NCBI GenBank assembly: GCA_034231615.1
Contig: CM067298.1
Coordinates: forward strand, 34,788,127 to 34,852,126
DNA: 64,000 nt
DNA from: Meghimatium bilineatum
Lineage: Eukaryota; Mollusca; Gastropoda; Stylommatophora; Philomycidae
Reading direction: 5' to 3'
The position numbers and the translations under genes are program-made. Positions 2,816 through 56,280 of this stretch are shown here, piece after piece (the first letter of the stretch is position 1; each line of letters opens with the position of its first letter). Under the pieces are notes generated by a model. The model ran no database searches. It was not told the DNA's origin and saw nothing but the letters and a program-made list of their open reading frames with translations.

Positions 2816-3639
2816 TTTCTTTAAGAATGTTTAAAAGTAGACTAATAAAAGAGGAATAAATTGATGTTGGTTCATTTGTTTTGATACTCTGGAATTAAAG
2901 TGATGAAGCTCATTTCCTTTGTTATTGGGAGTTCATCCTGAGCTTTTTTTATACTCTAGAAGACTCCAGCTTCCTAATGGGATGCAATGCTTTGAGAAGA
3001 AACCTTCAACTCTTGAGGAGAGGGCTATGTATGAATGTTTCTAATCAATAATCAACCAATGGTTGTATAGAAAATCTGATCAAAGAATAACATAAAAAAA
3101 TTAATGTGATACAGTTAAGTATCTTATTTTATTTGATAGTTTGATCTCTAAAGTGAAAAAGAAGTAAACTAAATCCCATAGCATAGAATACAATTTATTT
3201 TGATGTGAAGCACTATCTCAGAGACAAGACATTAGCACATCTAGATGCAGTTGTTGAGTCTTATTCTTGCAACCATTTCACTTTTCTGCTAAGAGACAAG
3301 AGGCCAACGCTCAGAGAAAGCTCCTTATCAAATCAGAAAGAGACAACAGCCATACAGGAAAAGAGAACATATCATAGTATTTGGGAAAAATGGGGAGGTG
3401 AAACAGAGGACAGCAGGGGGAGATAATCCAGAATCATCTTCTGAACATATAAGCATATTTTCCAAAAACAGAAGCAATACAGAATTATCACTAGATGAGC
3501 ACACATCATGCACATTTCAAATTAATCGCACAAAGAACTTTACATTCTGCACATTAACAATGCCTGGTACATTCTTTTATTTTGTTAGAGCTAAGATTAA
3601 GCTTTAAGGTTAATATTTTTTTAAATAATTATATTCATC

Positions 3640-3745
3640 AAATTATTATAAAACCCTTAATCCTTTATGGCCGTAGAGGTACTGCACTGAATGTATCAAT
3701 TAACAGAGTCCACCAATCATTTTATCTCCAGCAATGCGGATATCC
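3640..3745 (-). mobile_element. LINE-B 3' terminal fragment
   Basis: This stretch aligns by eye with the last ~100 bp of LINE-B at 12165-12250 (shared phrases 'acagagtcc', 'gatgcggat'/'atgcggat', 'aaaccc' near the end). It is non-coding debris. Confidence 0.6.
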
Positions 3746-4149
3746 AAAATATAAAAAAACCATGACTTATCAATTCTTTGAATTATCTGTTCATGATTTT
3801 CTTTGTCATTCTCTGTTCCTTCTACCTTTAAGTTTTCTTTGCTGGATCGTTTTAAGGTATTATGATGTTAACAGCATACCTGTCAACTAGTACATATTTT
3901 ATGGTTTCATAGAATATGTCGATATTGACCTTATATATTCAAGTATTCCTTATACATAATTTAGTGCTAATATCACAGACTTCTAGATACACATGGACTT
4001 GCATAGATGTCAGAGAAAGAGGCAGCTGTTACAAAAAATAGCTTGGATTTCACATACAATACAAGATTTCGCCCACATGATGCCTGGCCTTAATGGAGAG
4101 TATAAAGAAAAGCAACACTTTTTACCATCCATATATGTCATAGAAGGTG

Positions 4150-38775: not shown

Positions 38776-38936
38776 GATTGGCATAATTACAATCATATTT
38801 TATCCAACGGTTAAATGAAAAGTTATTTAAAGCGAGAGCATACTGTGTTATCTTTTTAAGATTTTATATGTCGTAATATAATCGGCCCCTTCAAGATTAA
38901 CTGAACAATTGTGTAGTCATATTTTGCATATGGAAA

Positions 38937-39011
38937 CCCCATCGAGACCAGCACCGTGCAGAGGTGATGGGGCTTAGTTCAGCCATCAGGGGCTGGAAAC
39001 TAAGACTGGTC
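38937..39011 (+). ncRNA. HDV-like self-cleaving ribozyme candidate
   Basis: A nested double pseudoknot can be drawn from the first base of the element. P1 is CCCCATC (38937-38943) with GATGGGG (38966-38972). P2 is GACCAG (38946-38951) with CTGGTC (39006-39011). P3 is ACC/GGT (38953-38955, 38963-38965) with a 7-nt loop. P4 is CAGCC/GGCTG (38980-38984, 38991-38995). J4/2 is GAAACTAAGA, with C39000 as the candidate catalytic cytosine. The strand order P1-P2-P3-P3'-P1'-P4-P4'-P2' and the 2-nt J1/2 equal those of HDV. Known LINE families use such ribozymes to free their 5' end. Cleavage would fall exactly at the TSD boundary. Confidence 0.82.
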
Positions 39012-39192
39012 GGGCAGTCCCATTCGAGCAGGACCATAGTCCTGCCCAAGTAAGCAGAGTGCTGAAGACGGAGGCATCCAGCCAAAAGGCGCACAGATAA
39101 TCAGGATGCCACGCACAAAACACAATGGAAACATGTCTTCATCTATAAATAGTTATGGTGCCTGCCCTGTGGCGGACGTTCAGGCAGGGTAG

Positions 39193-42100
39193 GTGCCGGG
39201 CCCTATACCTCGAAAGGGCCCAACCTCAGTTACTGGAAGTCCTTCTCAATTGCCCCGAGGAGCCAGGAGGCAAGGGAATAGAGCTACTGGCCAAACAAAC
39301 AAACGACCAATAAAAATAATGCACTGGAATGCTGAGGGTGTCAACAGTAAAAGAGATGGATACAGCAAAAAATTGGAACTTGAAAATGTCCTCAGTGAAG
39401 AACAAGTTAGTATATGCTGTATCCAAGAAACACACCTCAGCAGCGACATAGCCTTCAAAATCAGAGGCTACCAATGCTACCGATCTGACAGAAAGGACAG
39501 GCGAAAGGGTGGAATTCTGACACTTGTTAAAAACAATATCAGCGCATGTCAGCTGGAAGTATATATGGAAGGGGCAGAATACCAGATGCTCCACCTAAAA
39601 ACAGACAGTGCAGAATTCCATCTCCTGAACTACTACTGCCCAAATGATAAACCATTGGCACTAGACACAATTCCAGACAAAGAGAGACTTATGGTGTGTG
39701 GTGACTTCAACAGCCACTCTCAGAGCTGGGGCTACGATCATATCGACAAGAGAGGTGAAGAACTTGAGAGCTGGCAGGATGAAAATAATCTCATTCTTAT
39801 TAACCAGCCAGCAGACTCGCCAACCTTCTACTCGAGAGCATGGCACACCACCTCTACACCAGATCTGGCATTCCACTCACCAGGCTTGGAATGGAACATC
39901 ACACGTGTTGTTGGAAAGCAGCTTGGAGGTAGTGACCACAGACCAGTATTTCTGGAAATCCACAATGAATTTACCAAGGACAGCAGCACGCTCACTAGGT
40001 GGAATTATAAAAGGGCAGACTGGAAAATGTACCAGCATTTAACCAGTGTTCTAGCTAAGGACATGAACTTGGACAAAGACATCAATAGAGCAGTGAGTGA
40101 GTTTAATAGATGTATACTACATGCTGCTAGTAAAACCATACCCAGGGGGTCACTCAAAAACTACAAACCCTACTGGAATGATGAACTGGAAAAGCTACAA
40201 AATGAGATGGAAACATCTAGACAGCAGGCTGAGAACAGACCTAGCCAAGAACATCACAACAAATATCAGCAAACAAAGGCTAAATTTCAAAGAGCCAAGT
40301 TACAAGCCAGACGGAGCAGCTGGAAAGAAAAAACAGAGTCGCTGAACCTAGAAAGAGATACTAGGAAATTATGGAAACTTGTAAAACAACTAAATGATGA
40401 AGGTACGGGGAGAAATACCAGGATCACACTTTATAAAGATAGAGACATTTTAACAGGTAAACATGCAGCTGATTACTTTGCAGATTCTTTTGCAGAAGAC
40501 AATAACGTCAAAGTCAGCCCAGACAAACAACAGGAGGTTCGAGAGAACCAGCAAAACATTGGACAAGGTGAACCTATACCTGAAGTCATGGAGGCACCAA
40601 TCACAATGAGAGAACTGGAGCATGCAATATCCAAATTGAAAATGAAAAAGTCCCCTGGAGCTGATGGAGTGTCCAATGAAATGATTAGAAACCTGGGAAT
40701 TGCAGCAAGAGCAAAGCTACTGCAGATCTTTAACACAAGCTGGTCCACAGGTAATGTACCACAGGCGTGGAGAGAAGCAATAATGATACCACTCCTCAAA
40801 TCAGGAAAAGATAGCAACATAGTCTCCAACTACAGGCCCATCAGCCTCACAAGCTGTCTATGTAAAACAATGGAACGCATTATCAATCTTAGGATGCAGT
40901 GGTACCTTGAAAGTGAAAACCTTCTGGTATCACAGCAAGCAGGTTTCAGACAGTGCTACTCTACTGAAGATCAGGCAACCTACCTCTCCCAAGAGATTGA
41001 GGATGCCTTCCAAGAAAAGAAATTGGTACTAGCAGCATGGATAGACCTCAGGAAAGCATTTGATAAGGTCTGGAAAGAAGGGCTCCTAAAGAAATTGCGA
41101 AATTGCAGGGTTAGCTCAAGAATGTACAAATGGGTAAAAGCATACCTGCATAATAGAAGAGCCAGGGTACAATTAGATGGTCGCAAGAGCAAGAAAGTTC
41201 TACTGCGTCATGGAGTCCCCCAGGGAGGAGTCCTGTCACCCACACTTTTCTTGGTTTACATCAATGACCTAGTTGCTGAACTACCACACGGGATCAAAGT
41301 GGCAATGTATGCTGACGACCTGGTGATCTGGTGCACGGAAGAACATGCAACAGTGGCCACTAAACAAATACAAAGAGCTATCGATGCCCTAACATTATGG
41401 GCAAATAGATGGTGCGTCAGCATTAACACAGATAAGTGCAGCACTACACTCTTTACCCTCTCACCAAAACAAAAAGCTGGTCATATCAAGATAGATGGAG
41501 AGCTCTTGAAAGAAGACAAACAACCCACATACCTCGGAGTTACTTTTGATGATAAGCTGACATGGAAGCAGCACATAAACAAAGCAACAACAAAAGCCAG
41601 AAGGAAGTTAGCTATCCTGAGAAAACTAAGTGAAACCACATGGGGAGCCAGTGGAAATATACTCAGTAAAGTTTACCAGCAAGGCATAAGACCACACCTG
41701 GAATATGGTTCAGCTGCGTGGTGTCCTGCATCAAACACCACATTACAAGATCTAGATAAAGTGCAAAACCAGGCACTTAGAATAATGTTGGGAGCAATGA
41801 AATCAACACCCATAGCAGAGATGCAGAAAATGGGAAGAATGCAAACACTTGGCGAACGAAGAGACACAAAAGTACTAATTCAAGCAGAAAAGTTTCAGTG
41901 TATGCCAAGTCATCCAATGAAGGAAAGATTCCAAAATCTAGCAATGGGGCGACTGAAAAGGAGCAGCTTTATCCATCAAGCTAAACGACTCCGTAGACAA
42001 CTTACAGACCTACCTGAAGTTGACAGCCCCTTAAGGTCTGTACCAGAACAAACCCCGTGGAGTGAAAGTCATGGAATGCCAATATACATTCAGACCCATG

Positions 42101-42957
42101 TGAAAGGAATACTAAGCGAGGACGAACAGAACAGTGTGCAGCGAAGGACAGTCACCCTCAGTTTCCTGGATGAGGAATATCCACAAGATATATGGGTCAG
42201 AGTGTACACAGATGGGTCAGCACAGAATGCTGTGAGGAATGGAGGTGCAGGTGTATATATAGAATATCCACACAAGCCTAGAGATACAATCAGAACACCA
42301 ACAGGAAAATTCTGCAATAATTATGATGCAGAAATCCAGGCAATTAGTGTGGCAGCTAAAAAACTGCTGAACTCCTACTCTGGCCTACAGCCTGTGGTAT
42401 TCCTGACAGATGCAAGGTCAGTGCTTCAAGCTCTCCAGTCTGGAAAACTAACAGACTTAAAAAAACTACTTAGCGAATTGTCTTACTTGTATAGGATAAC
42501 CATGCAGTGGATACCCTCTCACTGTGGAATACCAGGAAATGAAAAAGCAGACCAACTGGCTAAAGAAGGTGCTGCCGAAGACCAACCAGATATACCAATC
42601 ACCTACCATCAGAAAAAACAGATGATCAAGTCAATAAGAAAGCCACAAACACCAACACAAGATGACTATCACATTATGAACAGACCAGAACAAGTTATAA
42701 TTCTACGTCTCAGAACAGGACACAACCGACTCCGCAGTCACATGTATACAAAGTTCAAGATTGGCAACACGGCCATGTGTACATGTGGACAGGCAGCACA
42801 GAGTGCCAGACATATACTTCAAGAGTGTTCTGAGCATGAAACTCTGAGGCAGACATATTGGCCAGAGGAAACAACACTGGAATCAAAGCTCTATGGGACA
42901 CTGTATGAACTACAAAAGACAGTGAGTTTTATTAAGGAGACAGAATTACAGATATAG
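39193..42957 (+). CDS. LINE-I endonuclease-reverse transcriptase-RNase H protein
   Basis: Open frame of 1254 codons after an in-frame TAG (39190). Numbering from 39193: endonuclease (EEP) with WNAEG near 45, QETHL near 78, GDFNSH at 170 and SDHRP at 247; reverse transcriptase with SPGADGVSNEMI, YRPISLTSC, AWIDLRKAFDKVW, GVPQGGVLSPTLF and the catalytic YADD at 706; RNase H with YTDGSA at 1005 and IPSHCGIPGNEKAD; Cys-His segment CTCGQAAQSARHILQEC at 1196. All catalytic motifs are intact. The first in-frame ATG after the stop (residue 43) would cut into the first endonuclease strand; an upstream in-frame ATG at 39106 is separated by the TAG, so the start is uncertain (readthrough or a single mutation). 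Confidence 0.95.
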   Translation: MPGPIPRKGPTSVTGSPSQLPRGARRQGNRATGQTNKRPIKIMHWNAEGVNSKRDGYSKKLELENVLSEEQVSICCIQETHLSSDIAFKIRGYQCYRSDRKDRRKGGILTLVKNNISACQLEVYMEGAEYQMLHLKTDSAEFHLLNYYCPNDKPLALDTIPDKERLMVCGDFNSHSQSWGYDHIDKRGEELESWQDENNLILINQPADSPTFYSRAWHTTSTPDLAFHSPGLEWNITRVVGKQLGGSDHRPVFLEIHNEFTKDSSTLTRWNYKRADWKMYQHLTSVLAKDMNLDKDINRAVSEFNRCILHAASKTIPRGSLKNYKPYWNDELEKLQNEMETSRQQAENRPSQEHHNKYQQTKAKFQRAKLQARRSSWKEKTESLNLERDTRKLWKLVKQLNDEGTGRNTRITLYKDRDILTGKHAADYFADSFAEDNNVKVSPDKQQEVRENQQNIGQGEPIPEVMEAPITMRELEHAISKLKMKKSPGADGVSNEMIRNLGIAARAKLLQIFNTSWSTGNVPQAWREAIMIPLLKSGKDSNIVSNYRPISLTSCLCKTMERIINLRMQWYLESENLLVSQQAGFRQCYSTEDQATYLSQEIEDAFQEKKLVLAAWIDLRKAFDKVWKEGLLKKLRNCRVSSRMYKWVKAYLHNRRARVQLDGRKSKKVLLRHGVPQGGVLSPTLFLVYINDLVAELPHGIKVAMYADDLVIWCTEEHATVATKQIQRAIDALTLWANRWCVSINTDKCSTTLFTLSPKQKAGHIKIDGELLKEDKQPTYLGVTFDDKLTWKQHINKATTKARRKLAILRKLSETTWGASGNILSKVYQQGIRPHLEYGSAAWCPASNTTLQDLDKVQNQALRIMLGAMKSTPIAEMQKMGRMQTLGERRDTKVLIQAEKFQCMPSHPMKERFQNLAMGRLKRSSFIHQAKRLRRQLTDLPEVDSPLRSVPEQTPWSESHGMPIYIQTHVKGILSEDEQNSVQRRTVTLSFLDEEYPQDIWVRVYTDGSAQNAVRNGGAGVYIEYPHKPRDTIRTPTGKFCNNYDAEIQAISVAAKKLLNSYSGLQPVVFLTDARSVLQALQSGKLTDLKKLLSELSYLYRITMQWIPSHCGIPGNEKADQLAKEGAAEDQPDIPITYHQKKQMIKSIRKPQTPTQDDYHIMNRPEQVIILRLRTGHNRLRSHMYTKFKIGNTAMCTCGQAAQSARHILQECSEHETLRQTYWPEETTLESKLYGTLYELQKTVSFIKETELQI

Positions 42958-42993
42958 ACATGTTTCAAGTGAACGAAAGAAGAAGAAGAAGAA

Positions 42994-43779
42994 GCATATG
43001 GAAAAATGTACACTAAAAACTGATAATAAAATTCGTAACTACATTTATAAATTGGCTAAATCGAACAAGATGCCACAATTAAAAAAACGTCGAATATGCG
43101 ATGTGCCTTTGAGTAAACGGAAGTTTACCTATTATTTTAAGATTAAACAATTAGGTACGCAGCAAAAAATACAGCACTACTAATATTAAATGTCCTGATA
43201 ATATCTCTTATAATGTATACCCCATTATTTCCGTGATTTTCAATGGTGACAATCTTGAAAATACTTCACAATGACCAATTAAAATCACAAAGATATTCAT
43301 GTCAAATAAATTCACGAAGTATGTCAATAACAATGAAATCTCTAAATAAACAACAAACAACGACACATTTGCACTCATGTGAACTGTGATTTCCGTTCCA
43401 CAGTGGATCGAATTGATAGCATGAAAAACAAAAACATAGTTGCATTTCTCAACAACTAAGGCTTATTACACGTTATCAACTGGTACTGTTGACAGACTTT
43501 GGGTGTAATGCTGTACAAAAAATGACAAATTACGTACATTCATAAAACCTTTATAAATGTATCATTTATAGAGGAAATTTTTTAATCTAGTTACATTTGG
43601 ACAAAACATATTTTTATATAGTCACGGAGAAACTAAGTTGGATCTAAAAAAAATCTTTTAGATCTAACACTTAGCTTAGGAGAAAAGTAATTCCAACTGA
43701 GAATATGAATTATAGAACGTGCTATAATAATAAATAATAAGCATTCGTGTATTTGTATATGGCATTACGATGAAACTGT
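42994..43779. other. Target flank, no recognisable gene
   Basis: Right flank of the LINE-I insertion. A 61-codon frame at 42998-43183 rich in Lys is not recognised. An imperfect inverted repeat (43633-43674, around GATCTAAAA/TTTTAGATC) is present. Confidence 0.45.

Positions 43780-45251: not shown

Positions 45252-45313
<62 letters not shown>
45252..45313. repeat. (TA)n microsatellite
   Basis: About 30 TA units directly abutting the truncated 5' end of the hypermutated LINE-I copy. Confidence 0.98.
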
Positions 45314-45316
<3 letters not shown>

Positions 45317-47025
45317 TGGTATTCCGCGGGCGTGAAGGGAGGCGATGGTGAAGCCGCTCCTTGGATCGGGAGGAGACACACGGTCTTCAATTGCAGGCCC
45401 GTCGGCCTCTCGAGCTGTGTGCAATACAGTGGAGCGCATTGTCGCTCTTGGGATGCAGTGGTACCTTGGACAGAGGTGTCGCAGCGGGCAAGCTTCAGAC
45501 AGTGCTGTTCTGCTGGGGATCGGGCTACCTGCCTCTCCAGGGAGACTGAGGACGCCTTCCACGATAGGAAACTGGTACTAGCGGCATGGATAGACCTCGG
45601 GAGGGCGTTTGATGGAATTTGGAAAGGGGGACTTTTGGAGAGATTGTAAGATTGCAGGGTTGACTCGGGAATGTGCAGATGGGCAGAGGCATTCCTACAT
45701 TATTGAGGAGCCGGGGTGCAGTGTCGTAGGGTCCCCCGAGAAGGGGTCCTGTTACCTTCACTTTTCTTGGTTAGCATCGGTGACCCGATTGCGAGCTGCC
45801 GTATGGGATCAGGGTGGTAGTGTGTGCTAACGGCCTGGTGTGTGCTAACTGGTGCTTGGGGGGACATGTGACGCGACAGTGGCCACTGAACAGGTGCAAA
45901 GAGCTATTGATGCACTGGATGTATGGGCAGGTGGATGGTGCATCAGCGTTGGCACGGATGGGTGCGGCTTTTCATTCTTTGCCCTCTCGCCTATCGACGA
46001 GGGCCGGTGTTGTCGGGATGTATGGAGAGATTTTGGGAGAGGATGGGCGGCCCACATACCTCGGAGTTGCTTTTGATGATGGGCTGACATGGGGGCGGCT
46101 GATGGACAGGGCAACAACGGGGGCCGGGTGGGGGTCGGTTGTCCTGAGAGAACTGGATGGAGCAGCGTGGGAGGCAGTGGGAATCTACTCTGTAGGGTTT
46201 GCGAGCAAGGCGTGGGACCGTACCTGGAGTGTGGTTCGGCTGCCAGATGTCCTGCGTCGGACACCGCATTGCAAATCTGGATGGAGTGCAAGGCCAGGCG
46301 CTTGGGATAGTGTACAGTCAACATCCGTGGTGGAGATGCAGAGAGTGGGGAGAGTGCAGACACTTGGCGAGCGAGGAGGCGAAGGGTGGTGGCTGAGAGA
46401 CTGCTAAACTTCGGTCCTGGCCCACAGCCCGTGGTGTTCCTGACAGTTTCGGAGTCGGTGCTTCATGCTCTCTGGCCTGGAAGGCTAGAGGACTTGCAAA
46501 AGCTACTTAATGGGCTGTCTTGTCAGCGTGGGGAGCTATGTAGTGGATGCCCTCTAGCTGTGGAATACCGAAGATGGAAGGGCAAACTTTCTGGCTGGGG
46601 GGGGGGGGGTGCTGCCGAGGACTAGCTGGATGTGCCGGTCGTCTACCGTCAGAGGAGACGAGTCATCGGGTCAATGGGAGAGCCATGGGCGCTGGCACAT
46701 AATCATAATGGATGTCACATTGTAAACGGAACGGAGCGGGTTGTGGTTCTGCGCCTCGGGGTGAGACGCGATCGGCTCCGCGGTCGCATGTGCACCTAGT
46801 TCGGGATTGGCAGCGCGGCCATGTGCATATGGGCGGGTGGCACTGGGTGCCAAAAATATACTTCAGGAGTGTTCTGGGTGTGGGGCGCTGAGGAGGAGAT
46901 ATTGCCTAGGGAAACAACGCTCAGCTCTATGGGCCACTGTATGAGCTACAGGGGACGGTGAGTTTTATTCGGGAGACGGAATTACAGATATATACATGTT
47001 TCAAGTGAACAAAAGAAGAAGGGAC
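45314..47025 (+). pseudogene. LINE-I copy, 5'-truncated, A-to-G hypermutated
   Basis: Aligns along its length with 40748-42993 of the intact LINE-I, including the 3' UTR and a GAA tail, with a ~490-bp internal deletion near 46385 (missing about 41865-42350). It is strikingly G-rich. In a gap-free 120-bp hand alignment (46048-46167 with 41521-41640) there are 36 differences: 29 A to G, two A to T, and one each C to G, C to T, C to A, T to C and G to A; 29 of the 51 reference adenines are affected. Coding capacity is destroyed. The pattern points to adenosine deamination of the sense RNA before or during retrotransposition. Confidence 0.92.
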
Positions 47026-47054
47026 ATAGATATATTTTAAGTAAGGTGGCTTTT

Positions 47055-51349: not shown

Positions 51350-52175
51350 CCATGCTTGTCTCCATGTCTTCTTCTTCTCGTTCGCAGTTTGACAAGTCCT
51401 GTTTTCTTAATAAATGCTGCTCTATTTGAAAGCTCCTCAGTGCTCCCATACATCTTTCTGTGGATATCCATCTCTGTGGGCCAGTGTTCTTTCCTTAACT
51501 GATTTAGTGTATTGCAGTCTTGCAGGATATGTTCAGTGGTCTGTGCTGCCTGCCCACAAGGGCACAGTGGTGATGGGACCAATCTTAGCCTATTTAAGTG
51601 GCTGTTTAATCTGTTGTGTCCTGTCCTGAGGCGGAAGATAATAATCTGTTCTGCTGTGTCGAGATAGTGGTAATTGTCTTTTGGGTGGTCGACTTTACTT
51701 ATGGCCTTGATGAGGGTCTTCTTTTCTTGGTAGGTGATTTCTTGGTCTTTTTGTTCATGTGTTGCTCCATCCTTTGCCAGTCTGTCTACCTCTTAATTTC
51801 CTGGTATGCCACAGTGGGATGGTATCCACTGTAGTACTACCCTTCTTTGGATGCTCACTTCTCGCATGGTTTTCTTCAGGTCTGGCAGCTTATCTCTGTC
51901 AAGGGCTTGTAGGACAGACATAGCATCAGTAAGAAATACCACCTGATGGCATTGGCTTGTTGTGTTTTTAATTATTTCTGCAGCCACGTTTAAAGCCTGT
52001 ACTTCTGCAGAGTAGTTGGAGCAGAATATTCCAGTTGGTGAACATGTGGATTCGTTTTCTTTTTCTGAATATTTTATGTACACGCCAGCACCGCCGTTCT
52101 TCACTGCTCTGGTTGCTGATCCGTCGGTATATACTTGTATCCATGCTTCTCTGGGGTACAAACCTTCAATCATGT
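51350..52175 (-). mobile_element. LINE-I relative, RNase H to 3' end
   Basis: Minus strand: WIQVYTDGSATRAVKNGGAG (RNase H first catalytic Asp), SAEVQALNVAAEI, VFLTDAMSVLQALD, QWIPSHCGIPGN, a frameshift near 51795, a FRLRTGHNRLNSHL-type segment, and CPCGQAAQTTEHILQDC. It ends GCGAACGAGAAGAAGAAG, the same GAA tail as LINE-I. It is not A-to-G mutated, so it serves as a control for the copy at 45314. Confidence 0.92.
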
Positions 52176-52439
52176 TATATGAGTCTGGGTGTTGCCTCAG
52201 TTACATAACTGAGAAGAACATGCGCTTTTATTATAAAGGTTATGGACTGTCAAGAGCTATTTGCTCAAAGCTAAAGGGAGTAGTTCACCATCCCGATCAT
52301 CCTCATCATACCCTTCCACCCCAGTGTTCCTAGTCGAATACCCAACCCCCCCCCCTCACCTTAAAGAAATGATCATTAAAACTCACAAAGTGAGGTGATT
52401 GGCTTTTGTAAATTAGTGTTTAGGTTAACTCCAGCTACA

Positions 52440-53575
52440 TTTTGAATATGTATTTATGGCCCTGTGTCAGTTTCAGCTAATCTTCAATGTGCAGACGCCA
52501 TCAAATCTGATAATACGCCGAAATAGGATATGTTGGTCCATTGAGGACACACCCTGTGTGGCTATGCGATTTCTCCTTGATTTTCCGAGCATATTTTATA
52601 GAATTGGTCTGTTGCGTGCAACTGCATACCTTAGAGTGAGTTCTGACATAGACCATCCACTACACAGCGAGCTCCCTCTTGTGAAGGAAAGCAGGCTCAA
52701 GAGAGGTAAATCGTGGATGGGTCGGGTCGAGGATACCGTTAAACATATCTGCGCCCCAGAAGACAGCTTCTGGCGAGGAATGGATACCTATTCCTACGTT
52801 CTTTCAAGAGGCAGTTAAGACCGTCGTTACACTCTAACAGAGAGGGCAAGAAACACAGCCAAGTAAACGTGGTTGCTGAGGTCAAGGCTCTAATATGCGA
52901 GAATGCCGATGATTCAGATGTTGTGATTTACACGGACGGGTCGGTCATCCGTCACCAGCGATGCGCATGGGCCTTTACTGTCAGATCAAAAGGGAAAGCA
53001 GTACACGAAGCCAGTGGTGCCTTTACCGCAACAACGAGCAGTCTAACTATGGAAGTATTCGCCGTAACGCAGGCACTTTTCTGGCTGGAGTCGCAACCTA
53101 TTCCTATGCTTGCATACTAAGTGATTCACTGAATATGATTCAGAAAGTCAAAACAGGTGATGTACGTAGGGAATGGGCGGTGTCATTGGCGAGAGCTAAA
53201 ATGCGGGAATCACTACGAAATTCACGCTTATTTTTGTCCCCGGACTTGCGGGCGTGGAGGAAAACGAACGTGCCGACAAATTAGCTAGTCTCGCCACCAC
53301 AACAGACGGTCAGCCTATGGACCGAGCAGACATACTCACTGCTCTTCGTGAGTCCTCACGATCAGAGGACTTTGAGATGAATAAGCATGAGTCAATATCA
53401 AGAATTGGGAGTGAGGATGTGCGTGGACCGAAGAGAACCCTTAACAAAGATACAAAAAGAGCAGTGAACCAACATAGAACCGAAACCATCAGCCGTTATA
53501 CCCTGAGAGATTTACTGAAGCGGAGATCGGAGCACCTATAGACGTGTCCGGTGTGCGAGGATGATAATCAACATA
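52440..53575 (+). mobile_element. LINE-F, RNase H half
   Basis: Plus strand: HPLHSELPLVKESRLKRGKS, MVAEVKALICENADD, VVIYTDGSVIRHQRCAWAFT (RNase H Asp), TMEVFAVTQALFW (Glu), a frameshift, ILSDSLNMIQKVK (Asp), VPGLAGVEENERADKLASLA, then ISRYTLRDLLKRRSEHL and a CPVCEDDN end. RT is missing. Several frameshifts. Confidence 0.88.
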
Positions 53576-53690
53576 GCTAATACCTAATGAGGCAAATAAA
53601 ACAGTGACACAGCGCTGCTGGAAATCTAGCAAGAAATTTGTCATGCTATAAGAGAGATCCGGTTGAAGCAGAGCCGTAGGTGAGTTTTGA
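53576..53690 (+). mobile_element. SINE-A copy, diverged
   Basis: 'aggcaaataaaacagtgaca', 'cgctgctggaaatctagca', 'gtcatgctataagagagat' follow SINE-A order. It is inserted at or near the LINE-F 3' end. Confidence 0.7.
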
Positions 53691-54774: not shown

Positions 54775-56280
54775 ATGTAAAGAGAAGAAAACAAAGAGGT
54801 TCTGACAACACTGCATAAAAAGAACTAGTCTTATTAAAAACATTAAAAATGAAAGATATAAAATATTTTGGACATATTAAAAGACATTACACTTTGTTGA
54901 AGACATTACTTGAGAGTAGAGTCGATCAAGAGGCAGACAGAGATACATATGGGAGAGAAACAACATAGAATGGACAAGTTACAAACTGACAGAGTGCACT
55001 AACAAGACGGCAGCATTTGTGCTATGCAGTGTGAGCAGAGGTTGTTATTTATTTTTTACCAGAGTCTGGTTGTGGCTGTGGTGGAATATGCACTGGCAAT
55101 TCTGACTCTTAGCCAAACTCAGATCGAAAGACTGGATAGAATCCAGACAATGCACATCATTCTTTGGTGCACAAGAGACACATCGATAAGAGCTATATGG
55201 TACCTACATGGCTGTCCTACAGAAGAGCACAAATTACAATATTACTGTGTACAGGTGTACCTTCAGATACATGCAGATAAGGAACATCCATTGCATTCCG
55301 AAATACAGAAAGTTAAAGGTAGCAGACTTAAGAGAGGGAAGTTGTGGATGGGATGTGCTGAGGATGTCATACAAAGTGTGTGCAGATTGCATGTGGCAGC
55401 ATGTGTGGAATGGATATGTCTACCCACAGATTTCAAAACTTGTTTGATAGTAGTAATAACACTTAGCAGGGAATACAGAGAATGGTGTCTCACGGTTGTG
55501 GAGCAAGAGGTGCAGGCTTTGTTCAGTGAGAATGCCAAAGAGGGGGATGTGATTATATACATTGATGGATCTGTGATTAGACATATTCGCAGTGCTTGGG
55601 CCTTTACAGCTCAGTGCACAGGTAAAACTGTCAGGGAGGAGAGTGGGACTTTTGCTGTGACTATGAATAGCATGACCATAGAGATTATGGTGGTGACCAG
55701 GGCATTTGAGTGGATAAGCACACAGAAGGTAACACATGTCTGCATCTTGAGTGACTATGAGTATGATTAGGAAGGTACAAGTGGGTCTCGTTTGTGAACA
55801 GTGGATTGAGGCCTTGAGAAAGGCTAGTTTGAAAGGAGCTACATTTATTTTTCGTTCCGGGACATGTGGGTGTTCAAGGCAATGAAAGAGCAGATAAGCT
55901 GGCATCCCGTATGATTGTGGCATGGAGCAATGGATCGAGCTGATGTTTTGAATTCTATAAGAGATATAGCACGCGAGAGTGAGACTAGTGTGGATTATGA
56001 TTCCTTTTCAATGGCCAGGATTAAAGATCAGGGTTTGAAATGCGGTGTTGCTAAAGCGAACATTTTAGAGGGTGCAGAAGAATAATGGTCAAGCAGCAGA
56101 GGACCGGAATTGTCAGCAGAAGTGTAATAGCGGATACACTCAGGGAGAAATTGGAGCAACTGTAGACATGTCCAGTTTGCAGTGATAATGATGTCGAACT
56201 AACTACCAAAGTAAGAGACAGATGTTGAAGGTCTGTTGCAGACAACCTTCAATGCGGAGAAGGAACTTGTTGATTGTGTT
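54775..56280 (+). mobile_element. LINE-L copy split by LINE-F
   Basis: The left part (54775-55003) reads KEVLTTLHKK, KYFGHIKRHYTLLKTLLESR; the right part (56204-56280) resumes with 'aaagtaagagacag' and 'tgttgaaggtctgttgca', the family's C-terminus. The break point lies at ACTAAC (54998-55003 and 56198-56203). Confidence 0.82.
55004..56197 (+). mobile_element. LINE-F, 5'-truncated, nested in LINE-L
   Basis: A clean 248-codon frame (55024-55770): LLFIFYQSLVVAVVEYALAI (RT thumb), HPLHSEIQKVKGSRLKRGKL, VVEQEVQALFSENAKEGDVI, IYIDGSVIRHIRSAWAFTAQ (RNase H, with Ile for Thr before DGS). Frameshifts follow, then a degraded GNERADKLAS-like motif and a QFAVIMM-type end. Target duplication ACTAAC. Confidence 0.9.

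Follow-up and report, generated by a model that had tools for sequence, protein, structure and literature searches.

The question raised by this locus is how a 5'-truncated LINE-I copy in the genome of the gastropod Meghimatium bilineatum came to differ from a nearby intact element mainly by changes from A to G on the sense strand. Both elements lie in the window, the stretch of 64,000 nucleotides from contig CM067298.1 that was analyzed as a whole. The first-pass annotation attributed the changes to ADAR editing of the LINE RNA, followed by reverse transcription, and the comparisons described below support this explanation. The substitution pattern is observed directly, and an ADAR acting at a double-stranded RNA stage would account for it. 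Judged from sequence comparison, there is a probability of about 90% that the window copy derives from a LINE-I RNA which a host ADAR had hyper-edited before reverse transcription, and that it is one of at least 11 such copies in the genome.

The edited copy and its intact neighbour

The following features were recognized in the window.

38937..42994, plus strand: intact LINE-I element, the first reference (open reading frame, Pfam domains, sequence)
38926..38936, unstranded: 5' target-site duplication of the intact element, GCATATGGAAA
42994..43004, unstranded: 3' target-site duplication of the intact element, GCATATGGAAA; its first G is possibly also part of the GAAG tail
45252..45314, unstranded: (TA)n run bordering the edited copy on its 5' side; the longest word it has in common with the 3' flank is ATATAT
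45312..46380, plus strand: first block of the edited LINE-I copy, 5'-truncated and A-to-G-edited, equivalent to 40747-41865 (alignment, substitution table, 5'-neighbour bias)
46396..47033, plus strand: second block of the edited copy including the tail, equivalent to 42359-42999
46597..46609, plus strand: run of 13 G inside the edited copy, with an alignment gap within

The intact element possesses a 1254-amino-acid frame (39193-42957) with endonuclease, reverse transcriptase and RNase H domains (Pfam). The presence of these three domains in a single frame identifies it, by domain content alone, as an I-type LINE. Its target-site duplication is 11 bp long. The window copy is truncated at the 5' end and is missing about 490 nt (element positions 41866-42358). 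The (TA)n run at its 5' edge hides any target-site duplication.

When both blocks are aligned with the intact neighbour, 278 of 619 A sites (45%) have become G. The other transitions are G to A at 31/361 sites, T to C at 19/337 and C to T at 41/367, and the eight transversion types together contribute 80 changes. This whole-copy alignment confirms the earlier observation that the difference is mainly A to G on the sense strand and runs in one direction. APOBEC-type DNA editing was rejected on the sense-strand counts of G to A and A to G. A recount of the 120-bp alignment of 41521-41640 with 46048-46167, on which the observation had been based, gave the identical 36 mismatches (29 A to G, one G to A and six of other kinds), and the figure of 57% for reference adenines changed there is reproduced as 29/51. 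The annotation also described a change from AAAGAA to GGGGGG near 46600. A G run is indeed present at this site, but the alignment has a 5-nt gap there and thus does not contain a clean replacement.

The share of A changed to G in the window copy depends on the 5' neighbour, being.66 after T,.58 after A,.46 after C and.23 after G.

The bias stands out from the background of the window. In a self-comparison that yielded 41 aligned pairs, A to G accounts for 177/228 and 101/139 of the transitions in the blocks of the edited copy, which forms two of the pairs; among those of the 39 other pairs that have 20 or more transitions, the highest A-to-G share is 19/45. A search for hyper-editing in other repeat families, which covered about 127 kb of the window and of flanks of other loci, gave no convincing case. 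Outside LINE-I in the same 127 kb, 2 of 308 alignments satisfied a loose rule by which one substitution type exceeds 50% (C to T 23/42; G to A 24/45), and both have about 60-64% identity and a bias far weaker than that of the edited copy. A tRNA scan of the whole window found none.

Other LINE-like sequence is also present in the window. On the minus strand, 51395-52234 is a distant LINE-I relative that is 63% identical to positions 3110-3948 of the reference stretch and has a balanced spectrum (A to G 30, G to A 30, T to C 29, C to T 18). An open frame with LINE-like sequence lies at 55024-55770, where the surrounding GC skew is high (.298 at 55001-56000). The strongly diverged pair 52442-53597 and 55082-56223 (56%) has 74 A-to-G, 50 G-to-A, 28 T-to-C and 62 C-to-T changes.

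Related copies and the shape of the edited blocks

A search of the genome (1.61 Gb, 32 contigs), for which the first half of the edited copy served as query, gave at least 43 matches; 40 of 1853 candidates were scored. The resulting set of 41 LINE-I copies consists of 20 loci with flanks, 19 stretches of 1.0-1.4 kb and the two window elements. A single rule was applied to all of them, namely a rate above 2% and more than twice that of C to T. By this rule an A-to-G excess is found in 11 of the 41 copies and the mirror T-to-C excess in none. Because the sample was picked by likeness to the edited copy, 11/41 is not a frequency of edited copies in the genome. The locus L013 carries a weak A-to-G cluster (40/1441 against the 12-copy majority described below) and falls outside the rule.

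Compared with the intact element, the A-to-G rate is.116 to.476 in eight of the 20 flanked loci and.005 to.038 in the other 12. The same eight loci and the window copy are conspicuous in A to G when the reference is the column-wise majority of the 12 low-A-to-G copies; this reference was selected for low A to G and is mildly circular, and the intact element as sole reference gives the same picture. A balanced spectrum against the true parent had been named as evidence that would contradict editing. It was not seen with the 12-copy majority as reference, against which the spectrum is one-directional in both L017 (A to G 291/699, T to C 1/385) and L019 (345/728 and 1/400). Among the 19 stretches, L035 (A to G 44/462, T to C 0/256) and L045 (35/290 and 1/148) are edited, and the remaining 17 have A-to-G rates of.002 to.015. 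Simple decay was rejected, as the A-to-G rate of the 12 clean copies that formed the reference is just.001 to.011.

A purine-blind 35-mer, allowing up to two mismatches, occurs at 3171 + 3199 places genome-wide, and its reversed control at none. Among the approximately 100 places listed, all on one contig, two have a single A-to-G change, one internal and one terminal, and no heavily edited copy is found. Heavy editing therefore probably affects a few percent of copies at most at this 35-mer site, and among these places editing is rare in recent copies.

A target-site duplication and 5' truncation are seen in the intact element and in several other copies, including the edited L011, which is bounded by a 13-bp duplication whose own A residues are unedited. 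Judging by the flanks of L010, L013, L017, L024 and L025 and by window positions 45252-45314, several LINE-I copies are embedded in short tandem repeats, possibly a favored LINE-I target. At the L009 locus, the edited LINE-I part is joined to a far more diverged upstream fragment.

The neighbour preference extends beyond the window. In all nine edited copies tested, editing is highest after T or A, third after C and lowest after G, with p values from 1.4e-6 (L011) to 2.4e-18 (L017); the corresponding value for L013 is.03. Pooled over 12 copies inside the fitted segments, the counts are 444/849 after T, 898/1835 after A, 454/1560 after C and 187/1126 after G. The proposed test of the 5' neighbour, based on the aversion of ADARs to G, thus came out as expected for ADAR. 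Depletion of G on the 5' side of the edited A is the published ADAR mark (PMC2873906; PMC5625713). The 3' preference in the 12 pooled copies is weak (G.43, A.38, C.35, T.30). For the invertebrate group of PMC5625713, A is reported downstream of edited sites, and since G slightly exceeds A here, the downstream context lends no support to ADAR.

The A-to-G changes are also clustered in blocks, as would be expected of a duplex. One segment was fitted per copy and compared with 60 shuffles, and in 12/12 copies the best segment was better than all of the shuffles, although the segment obtained for L020 is a gap of 24 sites that carry no edits. In terms of positions in the intact element, the full-length L010 has 0/484 edited A sites, then 160/923 (40386-42931) and then 0/32. 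The corresponding figures are 8/716, 213/428 (41407-42660) and 12/127 for L027; 0/125, 95/312 and 17/349 for L011; and 0/192, 44/245 and 0/22 for L035. Blocks end on the right at 42909 in L017, 42915 in L019 and 42942 in the window copy, and beyond these points 0/40, 0/37 and 0/20 A sites are edited. Less clean blocks, with A to G to the left of the block, are found in L009 (28/402), L013 (11/737), L015 (84/805) and L045 (8/83). The left edges differ between copies, and the right edge is alike in four copies.

Such a shape would be expected if the antisense partner were transcribed from a 5'-truncated, 3'-complete copy. Alternatively, the clean 3' end may stem from the requirements of priming. 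Possible partners are present at two loci with full-length elements: at L014 an inverted, truncated, 3'-complete copy (equivalent to 42488-42988, 91%) lies about 1 kb from the element, and at L013 inverted fragments lie 1.7 and 3.9 kb away. As candidate sources of double-stranded RNA, these arrangements are suggestive only.

Independence of the events and rival explanations

The distribution of the G sites bears on whether the copies were edited separately or instead inherited their Gs from a common G-rich LINE-I parent and spread with it. The first-pass annotation had named a phylogeny with such a subfamily as a refutation of editing. In a tree of 41 rows, 12 of them labelled edited, in which A and G were merged, the label changes 11 times, compared with a shuffled mean of 10.7, and 389 of 500 shuffles are as low. 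The edited copies are thus dispersed among clean ones, but support for the tree is weak: of its 37 inner branches, only one is starred and 26 are open, and the starred branches alone force at most one change, so that the tree by itself is compatible with a single origin. Before any correction, G sites are shared more often than independence would allow in 36/36 pairs of nine copies (odds ratios 1.7 to 6.0), in favor of a subfamily. Once context and local density are fitted, however, the sharing drops to z scores of -0.9 to 2.5. The scores are above zero for 30 of the 36 pairs, which leaves room for a preference outside the model, such as an effect of more extended context, or for a number of inherited Gs. 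L020 and the window copy have 26 non-A/G states in common and hence belong to one parental lineage. Against a common G-rich parent, the blocks begin and end at different places, and both L010 (27/3950 other changes) and L035 (16/1289) differ from clean copies by little but A to G. Overall, most of the editing events look independent, with room for some inherited Gs, notably in the window copy and L020. The phylogenetic test favors editing in the dispersal of the copies and in sharing close to the model, and is less telling in the weak tree and the positive scores; a G-rich subfamily as the source of the pattern appears very unlikely.

Error-prone reverse transcription, for example with skewed nucleotide pools that lead to placement of C opposite template A, would likewise produce stretches of sense-strand A to G, and a clean 3' end, which is copied first, would suit a process that starts late. 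Nevertheless, the rise inside the edited segments of the 12 copies is confined to A to G (2004/5567), with A to C at 32/5567 and A to T at 99/5567. Slippage-type errors of reverse transcriptase should favor G as the next template base, that is, the 5' neighbour. Here a 5' G is the least changed context and the observed order of contexts is that of ADAR. Error-prone reverse transcription is slightly less credible still. Mutagenesis of the type found in diversity-generating retroelements, in which A is changed to any base, was rejected on the same segment counts. A further rival is that adenines were deaminated in DNA, either by an ADAT2-like enzyme or by an ADAR working on the DNA of an RNA-DNA hybrid. 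There are precedents: A in DNA is a substrate of amphioxus ADAT2/3, and the DNA strand of hybrids is described as a substrate of ADARs (PMC10354150). That strand would be antisense, so T to C would be expected on the sense strand, and 0/41 copies have such an excess. In addition, the same paper reports amphioxus ADAT2 at GAA sites in E. coli DNA, whereas A after G is the least changed here. The chance that DNA deamination produced the pattern is accordingly lower again. Finally, an artefact of assembly or sequencing is barely conceivable, since the 12 edited copies are spread over eight contigs, have their own G patterns and block edges and possess ordinary flanks, and the neighbour bias is biological.

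Editing of RNA by ADAR would proceed as follows. Sense LINE-I RNA would pair with an antisense transcript, most simply one from an oppositely oriented, 5'-truncated LINE-I copy, and the block shapes suggest a duplex that begins at a variable point and extends towards the 3' end of the element. ADAR would deaminate many of the adenosines in the duplex while sparing A after G, which is the pattern observed. Reverse transcriptase would then read inosine as guanosine, and the edited copy would be inserted as other LINE copies are, consistent with the hallmarks at several loci, one of them edited. These events would have taken place repeatedly. The edited copies are about 0.7% to 12% diverged at other changes; the counts include 241/2037 for L020 and 304/2620 for L009, the latter inflated by its distant upstream fragment. 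This spread indicates that editing and insertion spanned a long time and that L010 is recent.

Coding consequences, host deaminases and known systems

When the A-to-G changes are placed on the intact frame, each copy acquires between 20 and 202 missense codons and no stop. The young, full-length, edited L010 (1375-5226) retains an open frame of 1283 amino acids, in which 106 residues differ from the intact protein. In its reverse transcriptase the second aspartate of the YADD motif, a catalytic residue, has been lost. The altered L010 protein implies that the protein responsible for insertion was probably made from another RNA, or before editing. In the edited copies seen, editing did not block insertion, and the daughters are altered. 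The suggestion that editing serves as an RNA-level defence is therefore borne out in part: the encoded proteins are changed, but the edited RNAs did insert.

The genome encodes ADAR-type deaminases, as judged from 14 exon-level matches to the A_deamin profile at five loci.

C17:2.24M, C21:56.24M, C11:54.65M, C21:45.69M, C12:22.39M: adenosine-deaminase-domain exons (A_deamin matches)

The C17 exon contains CHAE and PCGD motifs, and its best match among solved structure chains (4.4e-66) is to ADAR2. For the exon at C21:56.24M, the best structure match (3.5e-25) is to ADAR1.

Hyper-editing of RNA by ADAR is a known process, as is the editing of genomic retroelements by APOBEC. When ADAR hyper-edits repeat and viral RNA, it gives A-to-G clusters with low editing after G, as in the present case, and acts mainly on repeats or double-stranded RNA (PMC5625713; PMC6651903; PMC2790459); the cases include molluscan herpesvirus RNA (PMC6651903) and Drosophila sigma virus (PMC2790459). 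There, RNA or an RNA virus is changed, whereas here the changes are fixed in chromosomal retrotransposon copies. APOBEC-type editing also leaves one-type clusters in genomic copies of retroelements (PMC2873906). In contrast to the sense-strand A to G with ADAR neighbour bias found here, it yields G to A by cytidine deamination of cDNA. The same survey counts 129 A-to-G/T-to-C clusters against 247 G-to-A/C-to-T clusters among human retroelement traces. ADAR also meets LINE RNA, as here, in the restriction of LINE-1 by ADAR1; two reviews describe this restriction of human LINE-1 as editing-independent (PMC5974252; PMC6757416), whereas in M. bilineatum the genome appears to record editing itself. 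In the titles and beginnings of abstracts brought up by text searches of open-licence papers, no description of genomic A-to-G-edited LINE copies was found, nor, within those searches, any earlier account of repeated genomic fixation of ADAR-edited LINE RNA.

In a broader reading, to which we give even odds, ADAR editing would be a lasting germline mutator of this LINE family. Dead, 5'-truncated copies would supply antisense RNA, active RNA paired with it would be hyper-edited, and the daughters would be mostly sterile, as suggested by the many changed residues in frames that remain open. The chromosomes would then constitute a datable archive of ADAR activity and antisense pairing. Cytidine deaminases are known to leave heritable traces of their attack in retroelements. 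A repeated equivalent of the A-to-I kind, if true, would mean that double-stranded LINE RNA meets ADAR in germ-line cells and still completes retrotransposition. Every edited copy would preserve the borders of the duplex, the density of editing, the neighbour preference and a clock, so that any genome assembly would suffice, with no need for RNA, to trace the history of ADAR specificity and of antisense pairing.
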